Source: Siniperca chuatsi
Lineage: Eukaryota; Chordata; Actinopteri; Centrarchiformes; Sinipercidae
Reading direction: 5' to 3'
DNA length: 64,000 nt
Assembly (NCBI RefSeq): GCF_020085105.1
Contig: NC_058055.1
Span: 27,813,372 to 27,877,371 of the forward strand
A program made the position numbers and the translations under genes. Under the pieces are notes generated by a model, which saw only the letters and a program-made list of their open reading frames with translations, ran no database searches and was not told the DNA's origin. Shown in pieces: positions 4,377-60,550 of the stretch. Position 1 is the stretch's first letter, and each line of letters opens with the position of its first letter.

Positions 4377-4461
4377 GGCGCATGCTCAGTGTCGAGCACA
4401 AGAACTCAGCCAATCCTGTGCGAGCAACAGCACATTCGAATCTGCATGCGGCGCATATAAA
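4377..4461 (+). promoter_or_regulatory. H2B promoter
   Basis: Block conserved with the promoter of the other H2B gene (9074-9159). In order: GGCGCATGCTCAGT (NRF1-like), CCAAT at 4410-4414, a conserved CGAGCAACAGCACATTCGAA block, an octamer-like ATCTGCAT (one mismatch to the H2B octamer ATTTGCAT), and the TATA box CATATAAA at 4454-4461, about 50 bp before the ATG. Spacer sequences between these blocks differ, so the shared blocks look selected or recently converted. Confidence 0.85.
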
Positions 4462-4511
4462 CAGAGCGTCCGGCGCGCGGAGGGCTCAGCAGTTTCAGGG
4501 AAGACGCAAAC

Positions 4512-4880
4512 ATGCCTGAAACCGTGAAAGCGCCCAAGAAGGGCTCAAAGAAAGCCGTGTCCAAGGCCACCAAGACCGGCAAGAAGAAGAGGAAGACCAG
4601 GAAGGAGAGCTACGCCATCTACGTGTACAAGGTGCTGAAGCAGGTGCACCCCGACACCGGCATCTCCTCCAAGGCCATGGGCATCATGAACTCCTTCGTC
4701 AGCGACATCTTCGAGCGCATCGCCGGCGAAGCCTCCCGCCTGGCTCACTACAACAAGCGCTCCACCATCACCTCCAGGGAGATCCAGACCGCCGTCCGCC
4801 TGCTGCTGCCCGGGGAGCTGGCCAAGCACGCCGTGTCCGAGGGCACCAAGGCCGTCACCAAGTACACCAGCTCCAAGTAG
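4512..4880 (+). CDS. H2B: Histone H2B
   Basis: Core histone H2B, 122 residues, partner of H2A in the nucleosome. The basic N-terminal tail ([20 protein letters not shown], residues 1-20, then [11 protein letters not shown]) leads into the histone fold from about residue 33 ([17 protein letters not shown]) and ends in the C-terminal helix with AVTKYTSSK, which holds the lysine ubiquitinated in vertebrate H2B. The ATG at 4512 is the only reasonable start: TATA box 50 bp upstream and a canonical MPE N-terminus. No intron; TAG stop followed by a histone stem-loop. It differs from the copy at 8644-9015 only in the tail (PET versus PDP; KAT versus KSVT). No H2A partner is adjacent. Confidence 0.97.
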
Positions 4881-5470: not shown

Positions 5471-5573
5471 TATAAATATTAAAGATCAAACCAATACATT
5501 ACTGCTGATGTACAGTAATACTCGTAGTTGTAAGAGACGATGTAAACTCAGGTCTTCCATCTTAAAAATGTTT

Positions 5574-5645
5574 CTCCCCGTCGGGGAATCGAACCCCGGT
5601 CTTCCGCGTGACAGGCGGAGATACTGTCCACTATACTAACGAGGA
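5574..5645 (-). tRNA. tRNA-Asp (GTC)
   Basis: 72-nt minus-strand gene. Acceptor TCCTCGT pairs with ACGGGGA (one T-G wobble) plus discriminator G; D arm GTAT/GTAT; anticodon loop CTGTCAC with GTC at positions 34-36; T arm with GGTTCGATTCC, which is also the B box. The anticodon stem carries T27-A43 in place of the usual C27-G43, a compensated pair that preserves folding. An A5 run at 5564-5568 gives the Pol III terminator on the minus strand. It is identical in mature sequence to the copy at 7511-7582. Confidence 0.96.
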
Positions 5646-6039
5646 GACATACGTCACTATGTGACGTCCCGTGTATACATATATACTTATATACTCAAAT
5701 ATACTTGCACACAGTCACTATTGTAAAAATATAAATATAAATAAAGCCAGCTGGGGTAGATTTGTTTTATTGTCAATAAATCTGAAGGTATATTTTGAAC
5801 CTGATCATTAATTAATACTACGACTGATTTGAGACTAAGCTACTCTGTGTGAGTTTATTTTCAACAAGAAAAAACAGCAGTTTGACATATTGAGAGCTGA
5901 AAGAGGCCCTCAACTTTCTGCCTTGTTTGAGGACGTGTTAAAGACACAGGCGGACTCATTCTTCTTCTTTCGTGGCAGCTGATAATTAACGCTTTGGACA
6001 ACATCCTCCAATTATCAGAAACGTCAAAAAGAAATAACC
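5646..6039. other. Spacer around tRNA-Asp, no gene seen
   Basis: AT-rich sequence upstream of the tRNA, then ordinary spacer leading into a decayed LINE fragment. No open frame with recognisable content. Confidence 0.45.
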
Positions 6040-7510: not shown

Positions 7511-7582
7511 CTCCCCGTCGGGGAATCGAACCCCGGTCTTCCGCGTGACAGGCGGAGATACTGTCCACTATACTAACGAGGA
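7511..7582 (-). tRNA. tRNA-Asp (GTC), second copy
   Basis: Same 72-nt mature sequence as 5574-5645, including the T27-A43 pair in the anticodon stem. AAAA at 7501-7504 supplies the minus-strand Pol III terminator. Flanks are not similar beyond a few bases on either side. Both copies share one orientation although the histone genes around them are inverted, so the tRNA pair arose independently of the palindrome. Confidence 0.96.
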
Positions 7583-8643: not shown

Positions 8644-9015
8644 CTACTTGGAGCTGGTGTACTTGGTGACGGCCTTGGTGCCCTCGGACACGGCGTGCTT
8701 GGCCAGCTCCCCGGGCAGCAGCAGGCGGACGGCGGTCTGGATCTCCCTGGAGGTGATGGTGGAGCGCTTGTTGTAGTGAGCCAGGCGGGAGGCTTCGCCG
8801 GCGATGCGCTCGAAGATGTCGCTGACGAAGGAGTTCATGATGCCCATGGCCTTGGAGGAGATGCCGGTGTCGGGGTGCACCTGCTTCAGCACCTTGTACA
8901 CGTAGATGGCGTAGCTCTCCTTCCTGGTCTTCCTCTTCTTCTTGCCGGTCTTGGTGACGCTCTTAGAGACGGCTTTCTTTGAGCCCTTCTTCGGCGCTTT
9001 CACGGGATCAGGCAT
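8644..9015 (-). CDS. H2B: Histone H2B, second copy
   Basis: Minus-strand intronless H2B of 123 residues. Tail begins [20 protein letters not shown]; from residue 21 onward the protein is identical to the plus-strand H2B, including the fold and the [10 protein letters not shown]-terminus. It carries one more tail residue than its partner (SKSVTKTG versus SKATKTG). The start has the conserved TATA box 59 bp upstream and no alternative in-frame ATG before it. A stem-loop follows the stop. Coding and 3' sequence are near-identical to 4512-4950 in inverted orientation, while the leader is unrelated. Confidence 0.97.
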
Positions 9016-9073
9016 CGTTAGCTTCGTCAGTCCTCACATCAACGAGTGATCCCCGCAGCGCCGAGAAGGTTAA

Positions 9074-9159
9074 TTTATATGCGCCGCGTGCAAATTCGAA
9101 TGTGCTGTTGCTCGCACAGGATTGGCTGATTGTTTTTTAAACGCGACTGAGCATGCGCC
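9074..9159 (-). promoter_or_regulatory. Promoter of second H2B
   Basis: Read on the minus strand: GGCGCATGCTCAGT, CCAAT (9121-9125), CGAGCAACAGCACATTCGAA, an octamer-like ATTTGCAC (one mismatch to ATTTGCAT, at a different base from the other copy), and CATATAAA at 9074-9081. Order and spacing agree with 4377-4461 except for about 7 bp before CCAAT. Confidence 0.85.
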
Positions 9160-9229
9160 GAAACAAAGCAACCGTTAAACATTGAGAGGTGAATGGAGAT
9201 GTGAAGGTCAAACGGTAAAACATAGATTT

Positions 9230-9295
9230 AAGTGTATTAATACTTAAATCTGTACAGTAAAAGTACTAACACACACTCTGTAAAAATACTTACAA
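9230..9295 (+). repeat. Dispersed AGTAAAAGTACT repeat, left piece
   Basis: Left part of a widespread teleost repeat (compare 38209-38320). It stops where the 2.46-kb transposon begins and resumes at 11760. Confidence 0.7.
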
Positions 9296-11759
9296 GGGTC
9301 ATTATAAGAAAACGTGCCATTTCCCACTTTTAATGTTTGATTTTCAAAGTACTGTTTTGAAAATCTTTAAGCCCCTTTTTGGATGAAGTAGATCCTTACC
9401 TCTCAGGGAAATGTGCCGTGCCATCTCAGGCTATCTTATTTTTTATAATTTTTTCATATAACCAACATAAATGTGTGTGTTTGGTCAACCCTGTTACCGA
9501 CATATTAATTACTTTTTGAAAAGGTTTTAAATACATATATAGAACACATCTGATATACTGTGAAAGACAATCCCCCCATTGTTACATTAAGAGTGTTTGT
9601 GAATTGAGAATATTGAAAGTTTTATCTTTTTTTAGTGGATGAATATATTCATTTACAAATGACACTCTCCCAGCATCTTCTGTTTTAAGAAAAATGTATG
9701 GAAACAAAAATAAAACACCTCAATTCAATTTTGAGTGGATTATTAGTCTCCCTTACTAAACATTTACAATTAGTTGGTTACATTTTTATTTTCATTTTTT
9801 AAATGATATTAGAATATTATACAAGTAACAGGGTTGACACATCAGTAACAGGGTTGACAACAGTTACTGTATTGGTTATACCGCTTGTTTGAGTTACAGT
9901 TATGGTTGTAATGGAGTCTTAATTGGACATTCATAAACCTTTAATTCAACATGACTAATTAGCATATTTTGTAGAATGCTCTATTGAGATATTTTAGCAT
10001 AAAAATTATGAAAAATTATGATGATTCTGCGGATGTAAATGTAAATCAATTGTTTTATTAAAACATTAACATTACATTGCAATTAAATGACCAATTGAAC
10101 ATGTTTGGCCTTAACAGAATAAGCAAAAACCACTAACGATCACTTACTAAAGGCCACTATAAAAAAGTATAAAAAACAAAATGCAGATCATAGATCAAGT
10201 GTGTTGTAACATGGAGGAAGTAAACTGGTGAAAAATCTTATGTCTAGAGAAATTGGGTTTCAAGATTAGACACATATCGACATTTCAGAGTGGCCATTTC
10301 CTGATTCTATCCTGAAGGTGAATGGTGATGCAGTGATTTCTTTTGTTAACCATTCCCGCCCAGCAGACAGTCGTTAGTCCTCAACTACGTCCACAACAAC
10401 GTTTTAAGTACTGGCGCTCAGGACCGGAGCAAAAGGAAAAGCTAACTGTTGAACATGTTTGGCCTTAACAGAATAAACAAAAGTCAATGATCACTAATGA
10501 TCACTTAATGTAACATTCCTGTCTGCCTACCCAACAAGTTTTGACCAGATGTCTTTCCGTATTTCTACGTGCCGTGCTTTCTGTGAAGGTTTAACAGTGT
10601 ATCAACAAGAAATCTCTTCTGTTTTTTTACTTTGTTTCGCGTTATTGTCTGTTTTCTCCCAGTGGTGACCCGACTGACATCATCCCGGTCATAGAATGCT
10701 CTGATACTTGATTTTATATGTGTTGGAATGCGGAGCTTTTCTTTCTGAGAGAAAGAAAGTGTATTTCCATCTAAAGTCTTCCACCTTCTTCTTGGAAGAC
10801 CAATGGCACTCTGTCCATATTTCTGCATGCATGTACTTTTTTCAGTCATTTAGAACTAAAGAAAACCCTTGGATGAGAGGCAATATCTTCAAATATGGAA
10901 GTACCAAGTCCAGTTGCCCTTGATTTAATCCTTCTTGGGTATACAACATGGGTAAGACACACAAAAGCATACTTGCGTCAACCCTGTTACCCTGGAATGG
11001 TAACAGGGTTGACGAAAAAGGTTATTGGCGGCCATTACTAGCCATGAGGTATAGGTAATGACACCACATTATGTGCCTTAATGAGAGGCTTAAATGTTGT
11101 TATATATGTAAATTTTTTAAATATGTACAAATAACTTTTTAACGTATGCTTTTCTGGTAACAGGGCTGACACAATGAGCGTGTCCCTGTCTTTCAGACCT
11201 TACATAAACTCAAAGAAAATTCATTAAAAAGAAGAGAACACTTCCTTGTCTTCTACCATCAACTTCATGAAAGGCAGATGATGTCACTTCCTGGAACTGA
11301 TGCAACTTTTGGAACAGTCCATTATCTTTAAAGAGGGGTTTTCATAAAAAGTAACAGGGTTGACGAGAACCTAGGGACCCGACTAAATTGTATTTTTTTT
11401 TATTTTTACACATGTTAAGAATAAAATCCATTCATGACTAATGAACTGACACTTAAGGCTTTATAGAAGTATATGTTTTTTTATGATAGTTTGACTTTTT
11501 GGCCTCGATAGCAAGTAGAAGTAGAAAAATCCTACAGAGGGACAGGCCATTTTCAACATTTCTGCAAGATGCTTTGCACAAAAATGTGATTAAAATCCTT
11601 TAAAAACAAAAGAAACAGAAATTAATTTATTCTTATATTTTGAGACATATTATGGAAACTAAATTATAAAATATTTTATTTGTTTCATGGTTTATTAAGA
11701 TTTACAGAGCTTTTTTTTTCCTGAGGGACACAAAATGGCACGTTTTCGTATAATGACCC
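9296..11759. mobile_element. 2.46-kb TIR DNA transposon, unclassified
   Basis: Terminal inverted repeats of 27 bp with one mismatch: 9296-9322 begins GGGTCATTATAAG and 11733-11759 ends ATAATGACCC. Both sides are flanked by ACAA, a probable 4-bp target duplication. Inside are seven copies of GTAACAGGGTTGAC in either orientation (9484, 9825, 9845, 10977, 11000, 11157 with one mismatch, 11351); such repeated motifs often bind a transposase. A decayed minus-strand coding piece lies at 10565-10849. About 60 bp containing GAACATGTTTGGCCTTAACA is duplicated at about 10097 and 10447. The element splits a dispersed repeat whose two halves rejoin across it. It is not intact, and I cannot assign its superfamily. 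Confidence 0.8.
10565..10849 (-). pseudogene. Remnant coding piece inside the 2.46-kb transposon
   Basis: A 94-codon minus-strand frame with a basic, helical-looking stretch: KLRIPTHIKSSIRAFYDRDD, VSRVTTGRKQTITRNKVKKQ, KRFLVDTLLNLHRKHGT, then a stop. This looks like fish transposon-associated proteins I have seen with a DD.SR..GRK..TR..V..QKR pattern, but I cannot name a domain. Downstream minus-strand sequence is broken by many stops, and no catalytic triad is visible, so the protein is non-functional here. It is the best handle for finding a complete relative. Confidence 0.5.
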
Positions 11760-11824
11760 ACAAGTGTGTGAGTGTAATCAGGAAAAAGTCCTTAAAGTCC
11801 CTGTGGCTGTTGTGCTGTTCAGTA

Positions 11825-11850
<26 letters not shown>
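11760..11850 (+). repeat. Dispersed AGTAAAAGTACT repeat, right piece
   Basis: Continues the repeat interrupted at 9295: GTGTGAGTGTAATCAGGAAA, then TCCCTGTGGCTGTTGTGCTG, matching 38298-38370 in the same order. Confidence 0.7.
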
Positions 11851-12690
<840 letters not shown>

Positions 12691-22232: not shown

Positions 22233-25005
22233 CTTGAACTTCAGTCGCCACATCGCCGTCACACGTTGACAGGTCGTCATTCGATCAGGGTCCGGACTAA
22301 TCGCTGATGCGTTTCACGCTCTGGTCCAATCGGAAAAACGTGTCTGACGAACTGAAATTAACCGATCAAAGATTAGCTGATCGATCGACAGAAAATCCCA
22401 AAAAATCTAAAATGGCTTCAGCTTCCTAAATGTGAAGATGCGACGATCGTCTTCGTCGTACTTTGAATGTCTTTGGGGTTTTGGACCGTTGGTCAGACAA
22501 AACGAGACATCTGAAGACGTCACTTTGGCCTTTTTTTGCAGTTTTTCGACATTGTCCACACTGTAATTTTACAACGTCGGCCTATTCTGTAAAAGCCCGT
22601 TCTCGCTCCCAGGGCGTCAGATACCGCCGTTTTGTCCCGCCCCCTCGGCGTTGTGTGTGACTTTCTACAGAACAAAAGTTTATTTGAGGATTTTCAGTCA
22701 GGATTTAGCTTACAGTTAAGGCTGGTCAACGTAGGACGCACCCTTTTTCGTGCATAATCCTACGAATGTCCAGCAAACCAGCAACGGGCGTACTTGGACC
22801 TTCATCGTCATGGTAACTAAACACGTGGTTAACGTTGTAAAGCGGCCGTAGTTTGGTCAGGTTTAGGAAAAGCTCACGGTTTACGGTTAAAATAAGCAAG
22901 TTATGTGACGTAAACCCGTAACGTTACGCGGGTTACGTAACTTAAAATAAGTCGTTAACGTTGACTTTTGGTTTCACGCGGGACGCGAACCTGCATGGAC
23001 TCTGATGCTCTTCATGCTCCCTCATCTGACTTGAGTAGCCGTAAACGACGCAAATCATATTTCGAGAGTTTATGAAAGTCGAAAATCACTTCATCTGCAG
23101 TTCGCACCACAGCAACACAGTGGCATGACGTCACGCACGCAAGCTATTGATACTGCTCATGCTGGATTTTTACGAATGTCCAGGGTAGAGGAGGGTCTTC
23201 AGCCAAAACTTTGGGGTTCAGTTACTCTTCAACTAACATTTTCAATGCAGTCAGAGTATTTGTGCTTTCCCTGAACTAAAAGCACTTCTTCCACCACGGC
23301 GGTTGGATCGCAACCTGGAAGTGTAAAACAGTAAGCGTGTGGAGCTACAGAGGCTACATGCTAAGCTGGAAATCAAACCTTACTGAGAAGTGTTTCGCCA
23401 AAAAGTGTTTTGTTCTCGTCTGCTCGTCCTTCTGTGATGTGAGCTTAAAGATCGTAGTATGAAGTCTGGAAATCGTGAGCGCGCTGACGCAAAAAACACA
23501 GAAATGATTCTTTATTTCTGCATTTCAAACTGATTTTCTGCTCCTGTGTTTGCAGCCCTCAGATATAAATCTATAACTTGATTGGGGTCACAATGAGGAC
23601 GCGAGCATCACATAAAACTCTTCACGGAGGTGATGGCGCTCCGTGACTTCCTTTTCCTTTTTCATTGGTTAACTATTGACTGTGTTTAACAGCCTGCAGA
23701 CCAAAGAGGAACGCACAGAGCTGAAACAAACAGAAGGGCGTAGGTTTCAGAATAAAGTCAAACATTTCTACACATTTAAATCCATCGACTTCCTCTTCCT
23801 CTGCATGTTTTCGGGAAAAAAATCAAATATTACATTTATGTAACTAAACTATAAACTATAAGCTATATTTTTAGTTACATTTAAATAAATCTAGCAAATG
23901 AAAAGTTATGGTGAAACTGGCTGCAGCGCTTTCCAAAATAACGGTGATAAACAAATGTGAACTTCTGCTGTGTTTTAAACGCCCTTAAAATCATGTTTAG
24001 CTTTACTTGACAGAGATGATATATGATGGATAACGCTGTGTTTGCATCTTTATCTTCAATTCTTGTGTCTTTTTAGAAGAATATTAACTTACATGCAAGG
24101 AACATGCAAAACTGGTGAGGAACCACGAAACGTTTTTACCTGAAAAATGACTTAAACGATCAAAATAGTCGCCACTCAATTCTCTGTCGACTAATCGTTT
24201 CAGCTGTACTTGTATAAACTGTCGGGAAGATTAATTTATAAGAAAACATCATCTTTTATAACCTTGTGTCATGTGTTTTGTGTGTAAAAATCTGATTTTG
24301 TAAAGAAACTGAAGCTGTCAGATAAATGTAGTGAAGTAAAAAGTCCAATATCTCCCTCTGAGACGTGGAAGCAGAAAGTAGCGTGAGAAGAAAATACTCG
24401 AGTAAAGTACAAGTTCCTCTTTTGTACTTTACTAAAGTAAATGTACTCAGTTACTTTCCACCGCTGCTTAGTACACGTCACGTTTGAGCTCGCATTCTTG
24501 GGAGTTCGAACTCCAGATCTTCAGCTTCACCTTTGTTTTTTAAAAGTCGGCCTCGTTTTACTGAAACAAACGTCGCTGTAACAGTTAGCATGTTAGCTTA
24601 GTGTTAGCGATGGTCGTCGCCGCGTGGGGATGAAGTCAGAACTGCGGGATAATGTTGGTTAGCTTGTTGCATGTCTCTGATTAGCCGTTTACTTCCTGTC
24701 GGACTCCTGCAGACCTGCGCAGATTTTGTTATTTGTGAATTTGATTTCTTGGCACTATAATCTCTGCTAACCTTAGATGGGAAAGCAATGTTAACAGGCT
24801 ACTGTCCCTGAACGGGGGCCTGTAAGTAGGTTAAGTAGGAGTGGCTAATAAAAGGACTCTGTTGGCACTTTAAGTTACTTTTTCTTTTATATTCATGGTT
24901 TTGCGTTCTTTAATATGTTTGAGTTAAGTATGGATGCTGCTGTCCGTCCTGCTGCACTATGAGCTAACAACTTCTGTCGTAATGGCGGGTATGCACGCTC
25001 CACAG
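21727..25005. other. Gene-poor region with dispersed repeats
   Basis: No supported gene. Contains (CA)9 at 22093-22110, (GT)15 at 22202-22231, a repeat-like block near 22850-22980 (GTTTAGGAAAAGCTCACGG, GTTACGCGGGTTACGTAACT), and a dispersed repeat at 24316-24472. Confidence 0.5.
24316..24472 (-). repeat. Dispersed AGTAAAGTACA repeat fragment
   Basis: One end of the repeat seen in full at 38209-38962; ends AGTTACTTTCCACCGCTG, the hallmark terminus of that family. Confidence 0.65.
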
Positions 25006-27702
25006 TAATCACAAATACAGTTGCTTAAAGGAATAATTCAACATTTTGGCAAATATGTATACCTGTATGCTAAATATAAGGCTATCACCAGCAGCCGGCT
25101 AACTTAGCTTAGCATAAAGACTGGAAACAGAGGGAACCAGTAATTACAAATACAGTTGCTTAAAGGAATAATTCAACATTTTGGCAAATATGTAGACCTG
25201 TATGCTAAACATAAGGCTATCACCAGCAGCCGGCTGACTTAGCTTAGCATAAAGACTGGAAACAGAGGGAACCAGTAATCACAAATACAGTTGCTTAAAG
25301 GAATAATTCAACATTTTGGCAAATATGTATACCTGTATGCTAAATATAAGGCTATCACCAGCAGCCGGCTAACTTAGCTTAGCATAAAGACTGGAAACAG
25401 AGGGAAACAGTAATTACAAATACAGTTGCTTAAAGGAATAATTCAACATTTTGGCAAATATGTAGACCTGTATGCTAAACATAAGGCTATCACCAGCAGC
25501 CGGCTGACTTAGCTTAGCATAAAGACTGGAAACAGAGGGAACCAGTAATCACAAATACAGTTGCTTAAAGGAATAATTCAACATTTTGGCAAATATGTAT
25601 ACCTGTATGCTAAATATAAGGCTATCACCAGCAGCCGGCTAACTTAGCTTAGCATAAAGACTGGAAACAGAGGAAACAGTAATTACAAATACAGTTGCTT
25701 AAAGGAATAATTCAACATTTTGGCAAATATGTAGACCTGTATGCTAAACATAAGGCTATCACCAGCAGCCGGCTGACTTAGCTTAGCATAAAGACTGGAA
25801 ACAGAGGGAACCAGTAATCACAAATACAGTTGCTTAAAGGAATAATTCAACATTTTGGCAAATATGTATACCTGTATGCTAAATATAAGGCTATCACCAG
25901 CAGCCGGCTAACTTAGCTTAGCATAAAGACTGGAAACAGAGGAACCAGTAATCACAAATACAGTTGCTTAAAGGAATAATTCAACATTTTGGCAAATATG
26001 TATACCTGTATGCTAAACATAAGGCTATCACCAGCAGCCGGCTGACTTAGCTTAGCATAAAGACTGGAAACAGAGGGAACCAGTAATCACAAATACAGTT
26101 GCTTAAAGGAATAATTCAACATTTTGGCAAATATGTATACCTGTATGCTAAATATAAGGCTATCACCAGCAGCCGGCTAACTTAGCTTAGCATAAAGACT
26201 GGAAACAGAGGGAAACAGTAATTACAAATACAGTTGCTTAAAGGAATAATTCAACATTTTGGCAAATATGTAGACCTGTATGCTAAACATAAGGCTATCA
26301 CCAGCAGCCGGCTGACTTAGCTTAGCATAAAGACTGGAAACAGAGGGAACCAGTAATCACAAATACAGTTGCTTAAAGGAATAATTCAACATTTTGGCAA
26401 ATATGTATACCTGTATGCTAAATATAAGGCTATCACCAGCAGCCGGCTAACTTAGCTTAGCATAAAGACTGGAAACAGAGGGAACCAGTAATTACAAATA
26501 CAGTTGCTTAAAGGAATAATTCAACATTTTGGCAAATATGTAGACCTGTATGCTAAACATAAGGCTATCACCAGCAGCCGGCTGACTTAGCTTAGCATAA
26601 AGACTGGAAACAGAGGGAACCAGTAATCACAAATACAGTTGCTTAAAGGAATAATTCAACATTTTGGCAAATATGTATACCTGTATGCTAAATATAAGGC
26701 TATCACCAGCAGCCGGCTAACTTAGCTTAGCATAAAGACTGGAAACAGAGGGAAACAGTAATTACAAATACAGTTGCTTAAAGGAATAATTCAACATTTT
26801 GGCAAATATGTAGACCTGTATGCTAAACATAAGGCTATCACCAGCAGCCGGCTGACTTAGCTTAGCATAAAGACTGGAAACAGAGGGAACCAGTAATCAC
26901 AAATACAGTTGCTTAAAGGAATAATTCAACATTTTGGCAAATATGTATACCTGTATGCTAAATATAAGGCTATCACCAGCAGCCGGCTAACTTAGCTTAG
27001 CATAAAGACTGGAAACAGAGGGAACCAGTAATCACAAATACAGTTGCTTAAAGGAATAATTCAACATTTTGGCAAATATGTATACCTGTATGCTAAATAT
27101 AAGGCTATCACCAGCAGCCGGCTAACTTAGCTTAGCATAAAGACTGGAAACAGAGGGAAACAGTAATTACAAATACAGTTGCTTAAAGGAATAATTCAAC
27201 ATTTTGGCAAATATGTAGACCTGTATGCTAAACATAAGGCTATCACCAGCAGCCGGCTGACTTAGCTTAGCATAAAGACTGGAAACAGAGGGAACCAGTA
27301 ATCACAAATACAGTTGCTTAAAGGAATAATTCAACATTTTGGCAAATATGTATACCTGTATGCTAAATATAAGGCTATCACCAGCAGCCGGCTAACTTAG
27401 CTTAGCATAAAGACTGGAAACAGAGGAACCAGTAATCACAAATACAGTTGCTTAAAGGAATAATTCAACATTTTGGCAAATATGTATACCTGTATGCTAA
27501 ATATAAGGCTATCACCAGCAGCCGGCTAACTTAGCTTAGCATAAAGACTGGAAACAGAGGGAACCAGTAATCACAAATACAGTTGCTTAAAGGAATAATT
27601 CAACATTTTGGCAAATATGTATACCTGTATGCTAAACATAAGGCTATCACCAGCAGCCGGCTAACTTAGCTTAGCATAAAGACTGGAAACAGAGGGAAAC
27701 AG
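25006..27702. repeat. 135-bp satellite, 20 units, dimeric
   Basis: Twenty tandem units of 135 bp (three units lack one G, giving 2697 bp in all). Each unit runs from TAAT(C/T)ACAAATACAGTTGC to ACTGGAAACAGAGGGAA(A/C)CAG. Two diagnostic types alternate over most of the array: type A has TGTATACC, CTAAATATAAG and GGCTAACTTAG; type B has TGTAGACC, CTAAACATAAG and GGCTGACTTAG. Units 8 and 20 are A/B hybrids and a few A units are adjacent. The unit is one half of a palindromic teleost MITE (see 41868-42240). The last unit runs directly on into more of that MITE (CTAGCCAGCTTGGCTC). Confidence 0.96.
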
Positions 27703-29987: not shown

Positions 29988-30700
29988 ATCAGAATCAGAA
30001 ATACTTTATTGATCCCCGAGGGGAAACTCTTTCGTTACAGCTCATCACTGTCACGTAATTTAAACTGAAAACAGAGAATATTGCACAATTATCTCAAGTA
30101 TTGCAGAGATGTTAATGATCAATGTCCAGTTTAGTGACTTCGGGTCATACAGACTGACACTTAGAGGGAGGAGTTAAAGAGTCTGACGGCCACAGGCAGG
30201 AATGACTTCCTGTGGCGCTCTGTGGTGCATTGTGGGGGGATGAGTCTTTGGCTGAAGGTGCTCCTTTGTTTGACCAGCACGTCATGGAGCGGGTGGGAGA
30301 CGCTGTCCAAGATGGCGTGTAGTTTGGCCAGCATCCTCCTCTCTGACACCACCACCAGAGAGTCCAGCTCCACCCCCACAATGTCGCCGGCCTTACGGAT
30401 CAGTTTGTTGAGCCTCTTAGCGTCCGCTACCCTCAGCCTGCTGCCCTCAACCTGCTGCCCTCAGCCTGCTGCCCTCAGCCTGCTGCCCTCAACCTGCTGC
30501 CCTCAGCCTGCTGCCCTCAACCTGCTGCCCTCAGCCTGCTGCCCTCAACCTGCTGCCCTCAACCAGCTGCCCTCAACCAGCTGCCCTCAGCCTGCTGCCC
30601 TCAACCTGCTGCCCTCAACCTGCTGCCCCAGCATGCAGGATAGCACTGGCCACCACAGACTCATAAAACATCCTTGGGTCTGACGATAATAACAGCGGGG
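29988..30700 (-). mobile_element. Rex1-like LINE, 3' end with RT C-terminus
   Basis: Minus-strand reading gives the C-terminal end of a CR1-clade ORF2: RKAGDIVGVELDSLVVVSER, RMLAKLHAILDSVSHPLHDV, LVKQRSTFSQRLIPPQCTTE, RHRKSFLPVAVRLFNSSL, stop. A short 3' UTR follows and ends at about 29988 with the AATAAAGTATTTCTGATTC tail. The coding end carries an expanded 15-bp repeat (30430-30629). It is the closest relative in the window of 58735-59510. 5'-truncated and non-functional. Confidence 0.75.
30430..30629. repeat. 15-bp VNTR inside LINE coding region
   Basis: About 13-14 tandem copies of CCTGCTGCCCTCA(A/G)C, on the minus strand encoding repeats of GSRLR. Because 15 is a multiple of three the LINE frame is kept. 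The copy at 59397-59440 has only three units. Confidence 0.92.
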
Positions 30701-48940: not shown

Positions 48941-49471
48941 ATTGATCGGCAGGTTTGAAGATAAATAACGATTGATGAAGCTCACAGTTGCACGCGCAGG
49001 ATGAAGCAAGTGGCGTCAAAAAAAACACACACACATTTGCATCAAAGAGCTTTTAAAATCTGCACAACACAATAAAAACCTCTGACATCAGACCAGATGA
49101 AGAAAACTCAATATAAAATAAAATAAAACAGCTGTTTTTATTATTATTATTATTATTATTGTTATTAGTGTTATTTCCGGATCAGATGTAGAAGATGTCA
49201 CAAGTGAACTTCAGCTGCAGACACGTGCGGGACATTTGAGTATCAGTCTGCTATCGGCCTCATATTAAAATGTGAAACTGTCCGTTTGGGACGCGCAGAG
49301 ACGCGCGCGCTGCCTGAAAAGCCTTTGATGTTAAACGTCGGAGCGCGTTCCGGGTGATTTTTAAAGTGATTTGAAGCGCGAGCTGTGTGATGTTGTTAAA
49401 TATCTCAGAGTTAAATGTGAATGAGGGACGTGTGTGTGTGTGTGTGTGTGCGTGTGTGACCCGGGTCTTAC

Positions 49472-49958
49472 TGGGGTTGGTGGGCTGCGCGGAGCTGCGG
49501 CGGATCCAGTCGTACGGGTTCCTCCTCTGCGGGGATCCGGGGGACAGCTGCCCCGCAGACGCGTTTAGGGACGCGGGCATCAGCGCAGGCGGCTGTCCGG
49601 GGAACTCCAGGGGGCTGAACCCCAGGCTGGGACCCACCGTGCCGGACGCCGCTGGAGGCCCCCCGGCTGCAGCGGCGTAGTGGTGGGGCGACCAGTCGTC
49701 CCGTGTGGGCGGAGGTGGAGGCGGGTAGGCCGGGCTCCAGCCGCCGGCGCCCGGCCCGGCCTGCTGGACCGGGTGCACCTCGTTGTTGATGCCGTGGTGG
49801 TGGTGGTGGTGGTGGTAGCTGGCGAAGTCCGAGTACTGCGGCGGGGCGGGCACCGCGAAGTTCTGCGGGCTGAGGCTGAGCCCCGGGTGGCGGGACACCG
49901 GGGTCTGGTGCGGGTACATTGCCGGGTCCTTATCCAGCTGCAGGTAACTCACGTACAT
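49472..49958 (-). CDS. cdx1: Caudal-type homeobox protein, exon 1 (N-terminus)
   Basis: 487-nt exon, residues 1-162 plus one base. Starts [16 protein letters not shown], the caudal N-terminal activation motif (family MYVSYLLDKD, here with one extra Gln), then [12 protein letters not shown] and [11 protein letters not shown] typical of Cdx1/Cdx2. A run of seven histidines (49-55) and a run of six prolines (79-84) follow, then [12 protein letters not shown]. The PBX-interacting hexapeptide NPYDWI is at 147-152. The donor CCCCA/GTAAGA is strong. The ATG at 49956-49958 is fixed by the family N-terminus. The exon is a GC-rich island in AT-rich surroundings. Confidence 0.94.
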
Positions 49959-50068
49959 CTTTCCAGGTGAGGGGACGCCCTCAGCATACTGCGGATCCAG
50001 CCTGCCTCTCTGCCCCCCTCTCTCTCACCTGAGCTGGGCCTGCAGGTAAAGTGAGCTTCGCTGAGTGT

Positions 50069-55236: not shown

Positions 55237-55950
55237 TGTTTGAAACGTACAGATGAAACGTTTGAAACGTACAGATGAAACGTTTGAAACGTACAGATGA
55301 AACGTTTGAAACGTAAAGATGAAACGTTTGAAACGTACAGATGAAACGTTTGAAATGTAAAGATGAAACGTTTGAAACGTAAAGATGAAACGTTTGAAAC
55401 GTAAAGATGAAACGTTTGAAACGTACAGATGAAACGTTTGAAACGTACAGATGAAACGTTTGAAATGTAAAGATGAAACGTTTGAAACGTACAGATGAAA
55501 CGTTTGAAACGTAAAGATGAAACGTTTGAAACGCGATACAGATGAAACGTTTGAAACGCGATAATGAAACGTTTGAAACGTAAAGATGAAACGTTTGAAA
55601 CGTAAAGATGAAACGTTTGAAACGTACAGATGAAACGTTTGAAACGTACAGATGAAACGTTTGAAATGTAAAGATGAAACGCTTGAAACGTACAGATGAA
55701 ACGTTTGAAACGTGATGAAACGTTTGAAACGTAAAGATGAAACGCTTGAAACGTAAAGATGAAACGCTTGAAACGCATACAGATGAAAACGCGTTTGAAA
55801 CGTACAGATGAAACGTTTGAAATGTAAAGATGAAACGTTTGAAACGTACAGATGAAACGTTTGAAACGTAAAGATGAAACGTTTGAAACGTACAGATGAA
55901 ACGTTTGAAACGTACAGATGAAACGTTTGAAACGTACAGATGAAACGTAT
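55237..55950. repeat. 22-bp minisatellite, about 32 units
   Basis: Tandem units GATGAAACGTTTGAAACGTA plus CA or AA, 22 bp each, with occasional indels and CGCG variants. Minus-strand frames of 264 and 288 codons pass through it because the unit has no stop on that strand in any phase; they repeat a 22-residue peptide and are not evidence of a gene. Confidence 0.96.
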
Positions 55951-57905: not shown

Positions 57906-60550
57906 GTAATGTCATTTAAAGCAGAGTTTTTAAGCGTGTATTTGTCATTAAGCTGCGATTTGAATTAACCCTCGTTGTGGTTTTGTTTAAATGCCACAGT
58001 TAACATCAACAACTGATGCATTTGTGCGCGTTTCTCTTAACCCGCAAACGTTAGCTAGCTTGTCAGCTAACGTTAGCGCCGGATTACCGTTCACTACAAT
58101 AGCCACCAGCTAGCGCGTTAGCCTAGCCGGTAGCCGGTGGATAAGAGCCGTTGGGATGTAAACACGAGCGACTTGTTTTGCAGAGTTTCCTAATTATTGT
58201 GTCTTATATTGACTGACGCTGGATTTTTATTAACATTAACGGTCATTTTGAGCTCGCTTTGCCGGAGTGTTTAACGCCGAAACGCCGCGAATTGGCTGCA
58301 GAGAGGGAACGTTAAATAGTAGGTGTCACGGTAAAATTGGTAACCGAGTTTAAAACAAACCTGCAAACTTCTCGTTTACGTGTTTTTTTTCACGGTTTAC
58401 AGCGAGTTGGTGTATAAACATGCTGCTGTTCGCAACACACACTAACTTTAAATGGCCAAAAGTAAGCGAAAACATCAGTTCTCACACACATTCAGGTCAT
58501 TGATTATTTCATTGATTATAGATTTACAGTTATTTTTTTTTTTTTAGTCCATGAAATGTCAACAAATCCGAGGTTACCGTCCATTCAGTTTATCATATAA
58601 AACAGCAGAAAGAAAGTTTCAAGCAAAAATACTTTAAAAAAAAGTTTGATTATCAAAATAGTTATTTTTCTGTCAATCAATTAATAGATTAATTGACAAA
58701 TCGTGACAGCTCTTGTACAAATAAACATGTAATAAACAGCAGCTCACTGTCACGTCAGCGCACACAGGAAGAGAAGTACTAAGCAAAAAAATATAATACA
58801 CTATAATACAGGTCAGATTAAGTAAGTACAACGTGGGTATAAGTATAAAATTATAATAAGTGTGAAGTACAAAGTGGGTTTACTGGTTGATGATAGTACA
58901 GTATAATACAATGTAATAATATAAGTAATAAGCAGAGGTGCATGTACTGTCGAGAGTAATAGAGGTATATAATATCAATATCAATAAATAGGAAAAACTA
59001 ACATTGGAAAACTAATATTGCACGGGAGTATTAAACACAGAATATTACACAATTATGTCAAGTATTGCAGTGATGTTAATGATCAATGTCCAGTTTAGTG
59101 ACTTCGGGTCATACAGACTGACACTTAGAGGGAGGAGTTAAAGAGTCTGATGGCCACAGGCAGGAAGGACTTCCTGTGGCGCTCTGTGGTGCATTGTGGG
59201 GAGATGAGTCTTCCGCTGAAGGTGCTCCTTTGCTTGACCAGCACGTCATGGAGCGGGTGGGAGACGCTGTCCAAGATGGCGTGTAGTTTACCCAGCATCC
59301 TCCTCTCTGACACCACCGCCAGAGAGTCCAGCTCCACCCCCACAATGTCACCGGCCTTACGGATCAGTTTGTTGAGTCTGTTGGCGTCCGCTACCCTCAG
59401 CCTGCTGCCCTCAGCCTGCTGCCCTCAGCCTGCTGCCCCAGCATGCAACAGCATACAGGACAGCACCGGCCACCACAGACTCATAAAACATCCTCAGCAT
59501 CGTCCGGCAGATGTTGGAGGACCTCAGCCTCCTCAGGAAACAGAGGCAAATAGAACAAAGCATAGAAAAGTAGCACTAAAGGAAGAAATAAAAAGAAAAA
59601 CTAAAATATATTTACAAGATATACAGTTGCGTATATACACACAAAGAATATGTGCAATATCAGTGTAATATGCAAATTATAGTGCAAAGTCCAAAGCACC
59701 GACATAACAGGACAGCTCAATGTAAATGCAGTAAAATGTATCTGTGAAATGTAATATAGTCCTCAGGGTAGGAGAGGTGAGGTTAGGAGGTCGCTCACTA
59801 ATGATGCAGTGTCATTAATGATTATTTTTGTTATTTATGTGTTGAGTGAATTTTTCGATTTAATTAATTAGTCTATAAAATACCTGAAAATTGTGAAAAG
59901 TGAACATTTCCACCAGTTTCCCAGAGCTGGTGTCCTCAGATTGCTTTTCTGTCCAAAACCCAAAACGTGTATATAATCTAAAAGATCCGTATTTTGTCAA
60001 AATATAAGGTTCATATTCTGTCGATAAATGGATCGACTCATTGTTTATGTTGTGTAATTGTTTTGCAAAAATCTGTAGTTCAAATTAATGATTCAGAGCC
60101 AACTGAGATTAAAAACAGGCTCATTGAAGTCATCGAGTGTTCGTTTGGTTTATAAAATAGTTTAAAAGTGCTCGTTACAAGTTTCGGATGAGTCCAAAAC
60201 CCACAAAATATTGGATTTACAAAGTTACAAATCAGCAAATCCTCACATTTGAGAGACTGGGACCTGCGAGTGTTTGGCTGTTTTATTTGGTAAATGACCG
60301 AAACGAATGATTAAATATCAGAATTGTTGCCAATTAATTTTCAAATCAGCGAATCTTTTCAGCACGACGACGTGACGCAAAACAGTTTCCCCCGAACATC
60401 AGTTTTATTAGTTTCCATGTGATTTTTTGCAAACATCTACGTCAGAATATAAATCAGTATTAGAAGAAACAATCCCATTAAGATTATTATATTGATATAT
60501 CTACCGTGCTGTCGTTATGCCGTCTGATGGGTCGTAACTGTGTCGTGCAG
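57906..60550 (+). other. taf9 intron 1 (2.65 kb)
   Basis: Contains a Rex1-like LINE at 58735-59510 in opposite orientation and AT-rich spacer. No other gene. Confidence 0.85.
58735..59510 (-). mobile_element. Rex1-like LINE fragment in taf9 intron 1
   Basis: Minus-strand frame reads LRVADANRLNKLIRKAGDIV, GVELDSLAVVSERRMLGKLH, AILDSVSHPLHDVLVKQRST, FSGRLISPQCTTERHRKSFL, PVAIRLFNSSL, then a 3' UTR. Near-identical to the copy at 29988-30700 in the shared part but with only three units of the 15-bp repeat (59397-59440) and without the terminal AATAAAGTATTTCTG tail. A few residues farther upstream (MLRMFYESVVAGAVLYAVAC) are also preserved. Confidence 0.78.

Follow-up and report, generated by a model that had tools for sequence, protein, structure and literature searches.

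Transposons of the Academ superfamily duplicate 3–4 bp of their target. The Sola superfamily, reportedly the subject of Bao et al. 2009, is a further catalogued group against which we compare a 2.46-kb transposon at positions 9296–11759 of a 64-kb window (the whole stretch of Siniperca chuatsi DNA that was analysed, from contig NC_058055.1). According to the excerpted description in PMC10741241, Sola elements have a DDD (three-aspartate) transposase, a 4-bp target duplication, terminal inverted repeats (TIRs) of 11–1124 bp and a length mostly of 2–9 kb, and the relevant section of PMC4746887 lists them for zebrafish, medaka and stickleback and not for tetraodon, i.e. for three of four teleosts. 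Amoebozoan families of Sola2 show an AT-rich AWWT target (PMC3627910), a preference and not a defining rule.

The element is very probably a cut-and-paste DNA transposon in a non-autonomous copy that has suffered an internal deletion. A sequence-only reading of the window had already proposed a DNA transposon here, with 27-bp TIRs differing at one position and ACAA on both flanks, and this identity is borne out by the ends, the flanking repeat and a transposase remnant. The two TIRs, which give the element GGG..CCC termini, are identical at 26 of 27 positions, with a sharp stop at position 27; an inverted pair of this quality was reached in 0 of 100 first-order Markov simulations (13-mer seeded, region 9096–11959), the largest being 24. 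Against these ends, the 11-bp tip GGGTCATTATA by itself is no commoner in the window than by chance (13 matches at up to two mismatches, versus 15.8 expected), with exact copies at the two ends only. ACAA stands on each flank, and the chance agreement of two random 4-mers of window composition is ∼0.005; ends and 4-bp duplication are known from one DNA copy. The features of the element are as follows.

9292–9295, no strand: left target-site duplication, ACAA
9296–9322, plus strand: left TIR, 27 bp, starting GGGTCATTATA
9484–9497, minus strand: 14-mer site 1
9825–9838, plus strand: 14-mer site 2, in direct repetition with site 3 (starts 20 bp apart)
9845–9858, plus strand: 14-mer site 3
10095–10507, no strand: internal duplication with ∼300 bp of unassigned intervening sequence
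10527–10577, minus strand: C-terminal transposase end, ARHVEIRKDIWSKLVG plus stop, in a different frame from the upstream piece (tblastn)
10577–10828, minus strand: N-terminal transposase piece, ending LHRK at 10577, within the frame 10565–10849; 81 of 84 residues identical to P0020 167–250
10977–10990, minus strand: 14-mer site 4, an inverted pair with site 5
11000–11013, plus strand: 14-mer site 5
11157–11170, plus strand: 14-mer site 6, one mismatch
11351–11364, plus strand: 14-mer site 7
11733–11759, minus strand: right TIR
11760–11763, no strand: right target-site duplication, ACAA

The minus-strand frame at 10565–10849 encodes 94 residues (P0001) and, judged by its sequence, is that of a transposase. 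Searching with P0001 returned four short proteins at E ≤ 1. With one of these (P0003) as a region query, 25 proteins of 303–818 residues were obtained at E ≤ 0.01 among 171 candidates, and the 13 rows that named an organism comprised 11 fish, one mussel and one spider. With a nine-sequence profile the number rose to 712 proteins (E ≤ 0.01; 6,513 candidates); the organisms named among the best 120 of these were fishes, bivalves, limpets (Patella), a chiton (Liolophura), a sea star and a spider, and the same 120 included two rows labelled as a bacterial metagenome-assembled genome (Sedimenticola) whose contigs are shorter than 6 kb; we infer these two to be host contamination. Protein names in the best 120 and in the 25 rows of the region query were uncharacterized, hypothetical or unnamed only. 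No match at cut-off was found in Pfam for 17 family members or in NCBIfam for six, and one further listed member has a precomputed domain, PF01602, that looks unrelated. The window peptide shares with P0020 (unnamed, 606 residues) the 81 of 84 positions given above; in a core tree of 83 sequences P0020 groups with eight others (support 0.988), and the four with an organism name are fishes. An orphan peptide is in this way tied to a large transposase family whose tested members are without a Pfam or NCBIfam model, and for this family a single pair of ends, a single target duplication and candidates for binding sites become available, together with a confidently predicted fold; the A3 alignment can be used by annotators as a profile.

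For the relative P0015, AlphaFold (mean predicted local distance difference test score 89.5) gave an integrase-like RNase H core followed by a Tudor/SH3-like barrel. The residues D369, D452 and D494, at positions placed by the model, are kept in 83, 82 and 83 of 83 relatives, respectively, with E485 as an alternative candidate for the third acid. The relatives are thus predicted to hold three acids in order on an RNase H fold, as DDE/D transposases generally do, and the suggested origin of the peptide from such an enzyme proved right. In predicted topology and order of acids the family resembles retroviral integrase, IstA and Mos1, but identity in the aligned parts is only about 6–14%, and the N-terminal region of the family differs. 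Retroviral integrase has a C-terminal SH3-like domain, which the predicted barrel after the core resembles. P0020 continues through the DDD core but stops before this barrel. A C-terminal Tudor domain, as predicted here, also occurs in another integrating element, Gypsy-10_Ec32 of Ectocarpus, in the account excerpted from PMC12477816; that element is, however, a long terminal repeat retrotransposon, and the likeness of the present family is one of predicted fold only. As far as the authors of this 2025 paper are aware, the same excerpt states, no transposable element with a Tudor domain had been reported before their retrotransposon. With a Tudor-like barrel predicted, chromatin-guided integration becomes testable.

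Although P0020 and its fish relatives share a family with the window copy, P0020 has the DDD core and the window copy has lost it. When relatives were searched by tblastn, two pieces of the window met at 10577 on the same strand and in different frames. The C-terminal piece has 12 of 15 residues identical to residues 689–703 of the 704 of P0015, followed by glycine and stop; its E value alone is 0.038, but a chance match is improbable given that the piece lies on the same strand and exactly at the junction. A profile of 820 positions matched the window over 211–296 and then over 784–814 at a negative score, so that about 490 positions, including all three catalytic acids, are gone. Residues 1–166 of P0020 were not found upstream of the remnant by tblastn or by the profile. 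The frame described earlier as decayed exists and is more than decayed, its catalytic core having been cut out, so that the copy would be mobile only in trans. Between 10095–10146 and 10449–10507 an internal duplication (51–59 bp, 83% alike) encloses the ∼300 bp noted above, and the short plus-strand frames tested there had no Pfam match; duplication and intervening sequence may perhaps be filler from repair.

With up to two mismatches allowed, the 64 kb contain seven copies of the 14-mer GTAACAGGGTTGAC (six exact, one with one mismatch), always within the element and in both orientations, in agreement with the earlier count. Seven matches were reached in 0 of 100 dinucleotide shuffles (mean 0.46), and allowing exactly three mismatches added two matches, both outside the element. 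Measured from the left end, the sites start at 188, 529, 549, 1681, 1704, 1861 and 2055 bp, and from the nearer end at 188–769 bp; sites 4 and 5 lie within an inverted repeat whose 19-bp arms are separated by 7 bp. The edges of the block are sharp, with 13 positions conserved in 7/7 and one in 6/7. Outside it a purine immediately precedes the site in 7/7 and a weak A-rich trail follows at +2 to +4 (A in 4, 5 and 6 of 7); as the flanks are otherwise unconserved, the 14-mers are discrete motifs and not parts of a longer repeat. Their discreteness and clustering fit putative transposase binding sites, a role that is plausible.

On this evidence the parent element would have a minus-strand gene for a transposase some 700–800 residues long. 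Going by predictions on relatives, this enzyme would combine a helical N terminus and a cysteine-rich, potentially metal-binding block with an RNase H-type DDD core and, C-terminally, a Tudor/SH3-like barrel. The present copy retains its two ends and the noncoding flanks, in which the seven 14-bp sites lie; of the transposase gene it keeps 84 codons from the N-terminal part as well as the C-terminal end. Transposase from an intact copy would bind the ends and the internal 14-mers, pair the ends and cut the element out, and joining to the target with a 4-bp stagger would leave ACAA on either side. While the ends, the flanking repeat, the sites, the homology and the deletion are seen directly, mobilization in trans, the 4-bp stagger as a rule of the family and the role of the 14-mers are inferred.

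The view that unrelated fragments came by chance to lie within an inverted repeat, with no mobile element at all, draws on the single copy read; set against the 26/27 ends, their absence from 100 simulations, the 4-bp flanking repeat and the transposase remnant inside, it is hardly credible. The 14-mers could instead be bound by a host factor in transcription or silencing, which we hold to be a possible, if not the favoured, explanation. Most subterminal transposase sites are nearer the element ends than the 188–769 bp seen here, and upstream of the transposase remnant there are four of the seven, two points for a host factor; that the sites flank the coding remnant on either side and that the 64 kb hold no other copy with two mismatches or fewer fits an element-specific protein better.

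Regarding its superfamily, we see an even chance that the family belongs to Sola or is its sister. An unnamed superfamily is a tentative option, and another catalogued one such as Academ is doubtful. Measured against the partial description of Sola, ACAA/ACAA in one copy agrees with the 4-bp duplication, the DDD triad is present in the relatives and missing with the core from the window copy, and 27 bp and 2.46 kb (of a deleted copy) fall within the ranges for TIR and length. This likeness rests on published descriptions and not on transposase sequences, no Sola-labelled protein having been found in the protein collections used; with Sola compared by description only, the element is not filed as a proven member. 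Two observations weigh against Sola. The ACAA flank is unlike the AWWT of the amoebozoan Sola2 copies; and the family reaches limpets (Patella) and a chiton (Liolophura), whereas a survey of 39 mollusc genomes (PMC10294476), which applied filters of its own and included one chiton and five gastropods, had profile-based Sola and Academ hits in bivalves only. The last point also favours a family outside Sola, forming its own superfamily or placed in one like Academ and never formally named though common in animals, as do the missing Pfam and NCBIfam matches, the uninformative protein names and the lack of a match for five catalytic-motif strings in the literature searched. Such a family is nevertheless unlikely: DDD core, 4-bp duplication and 27-bp TIR fit Sola as excerpted, Sola is recorded in three of the four teleosts of PMC4746887, and the mollusc survey is bounded by its 39 genomes and filters and does not name Patella in its main text. 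The poorly described superfamily of the sequence-only reading is doubtful on the same grounds; the family is indeed unnamed and its tested members unmatched, but its hallmarks are those of a group known in teleosts. A broader conjecture, in which an unnamed animal-wide superfamily would combine a DDD core and 4-bp staggered integration with a Tudor-type C-terminal reader possibly steering by chromatin state and 14-bp arrays acting as a transpososome enhancer, seems to us rather improbable; if it were true, an insertion inside a histone gene cluster would fit chromatin-guided targeting.

Four other superfamilies were rejected on the features available in partial descriptions. piggyBac needs a TTAA target and CC..GG termini, versus ACAA and GGG..CCC here. 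Kolobok has a TTAA-specific duplication (PMC9587614), although its RR..YY termini would fit. Ginger has TG..CA termini and a TIR of 40–270 bp, versus GGG..CCC and 27 bp, although a 4–6-bp duplication would fit, and Chapaev (CMC) has CAC..GTG termini (PMC4079192), although a 3–4-bp duplication would fit. Academ, compared by description only, is not among these; its duplication is put at 3 bp in the iMITEdb account, and 4 bp is seen here.

Viral and prokaryote contigs were also searched, collections not meant for fish DNA, so that zeros in them say little. In viral contigs, 64 stretches fitted the pattern of the A1 alignment and 19 that of P0001, and in prokaryote contigs 69 fitted the A3 alignment, none being confirmed in any case. 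The full 27-bp end was absent from viral contigs, and paired 14-mers 0–30 bp apart were absent from viral contigs (direct and inverted) and from prokaryote contigs (direct). The single 14-mer matched at least 120 stretches of viral contigs, and each of the 80 loci listed had one match, as by chance.

The element lies between an H2B gene (8644–9033, minus strand) and an H4 gene (12258–12626, minus strand), both named by eye from their translations; a single insertion says nothing about a preference for histone genes. A further H2B-like frame was recognized by eye at 4461–4880 (plus strand), and two tRNA-Asp(gtc) genes with equal Rfam scores stand among the histone genes at 5573–5646 and 7511–7582 (both minus strand). 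Elsewhere in the window, a satellite at 25003–27702 comprises 20 copies of a 135-bp unit (96% matches), and 32 copies of a 22-bp unit at 55238–55948 are open in three minus-strand frames. The related frames 30165–30683 and 59129–59668 (REELKSL..TGR..DFLWRSVVHCG) carry a 14-bp minisatellite, GCTGCCCTCAACCT / GCTGCCCTCAGCCT, in 14.5 and 4.1 copies, and may both derive from a single dispersed repeat in which the minisatellite is expanding. A frame at 49260–50024 (minus strand) was recognized by eye as resembling an exon of a caudal-type (CDX) homeobox gene.
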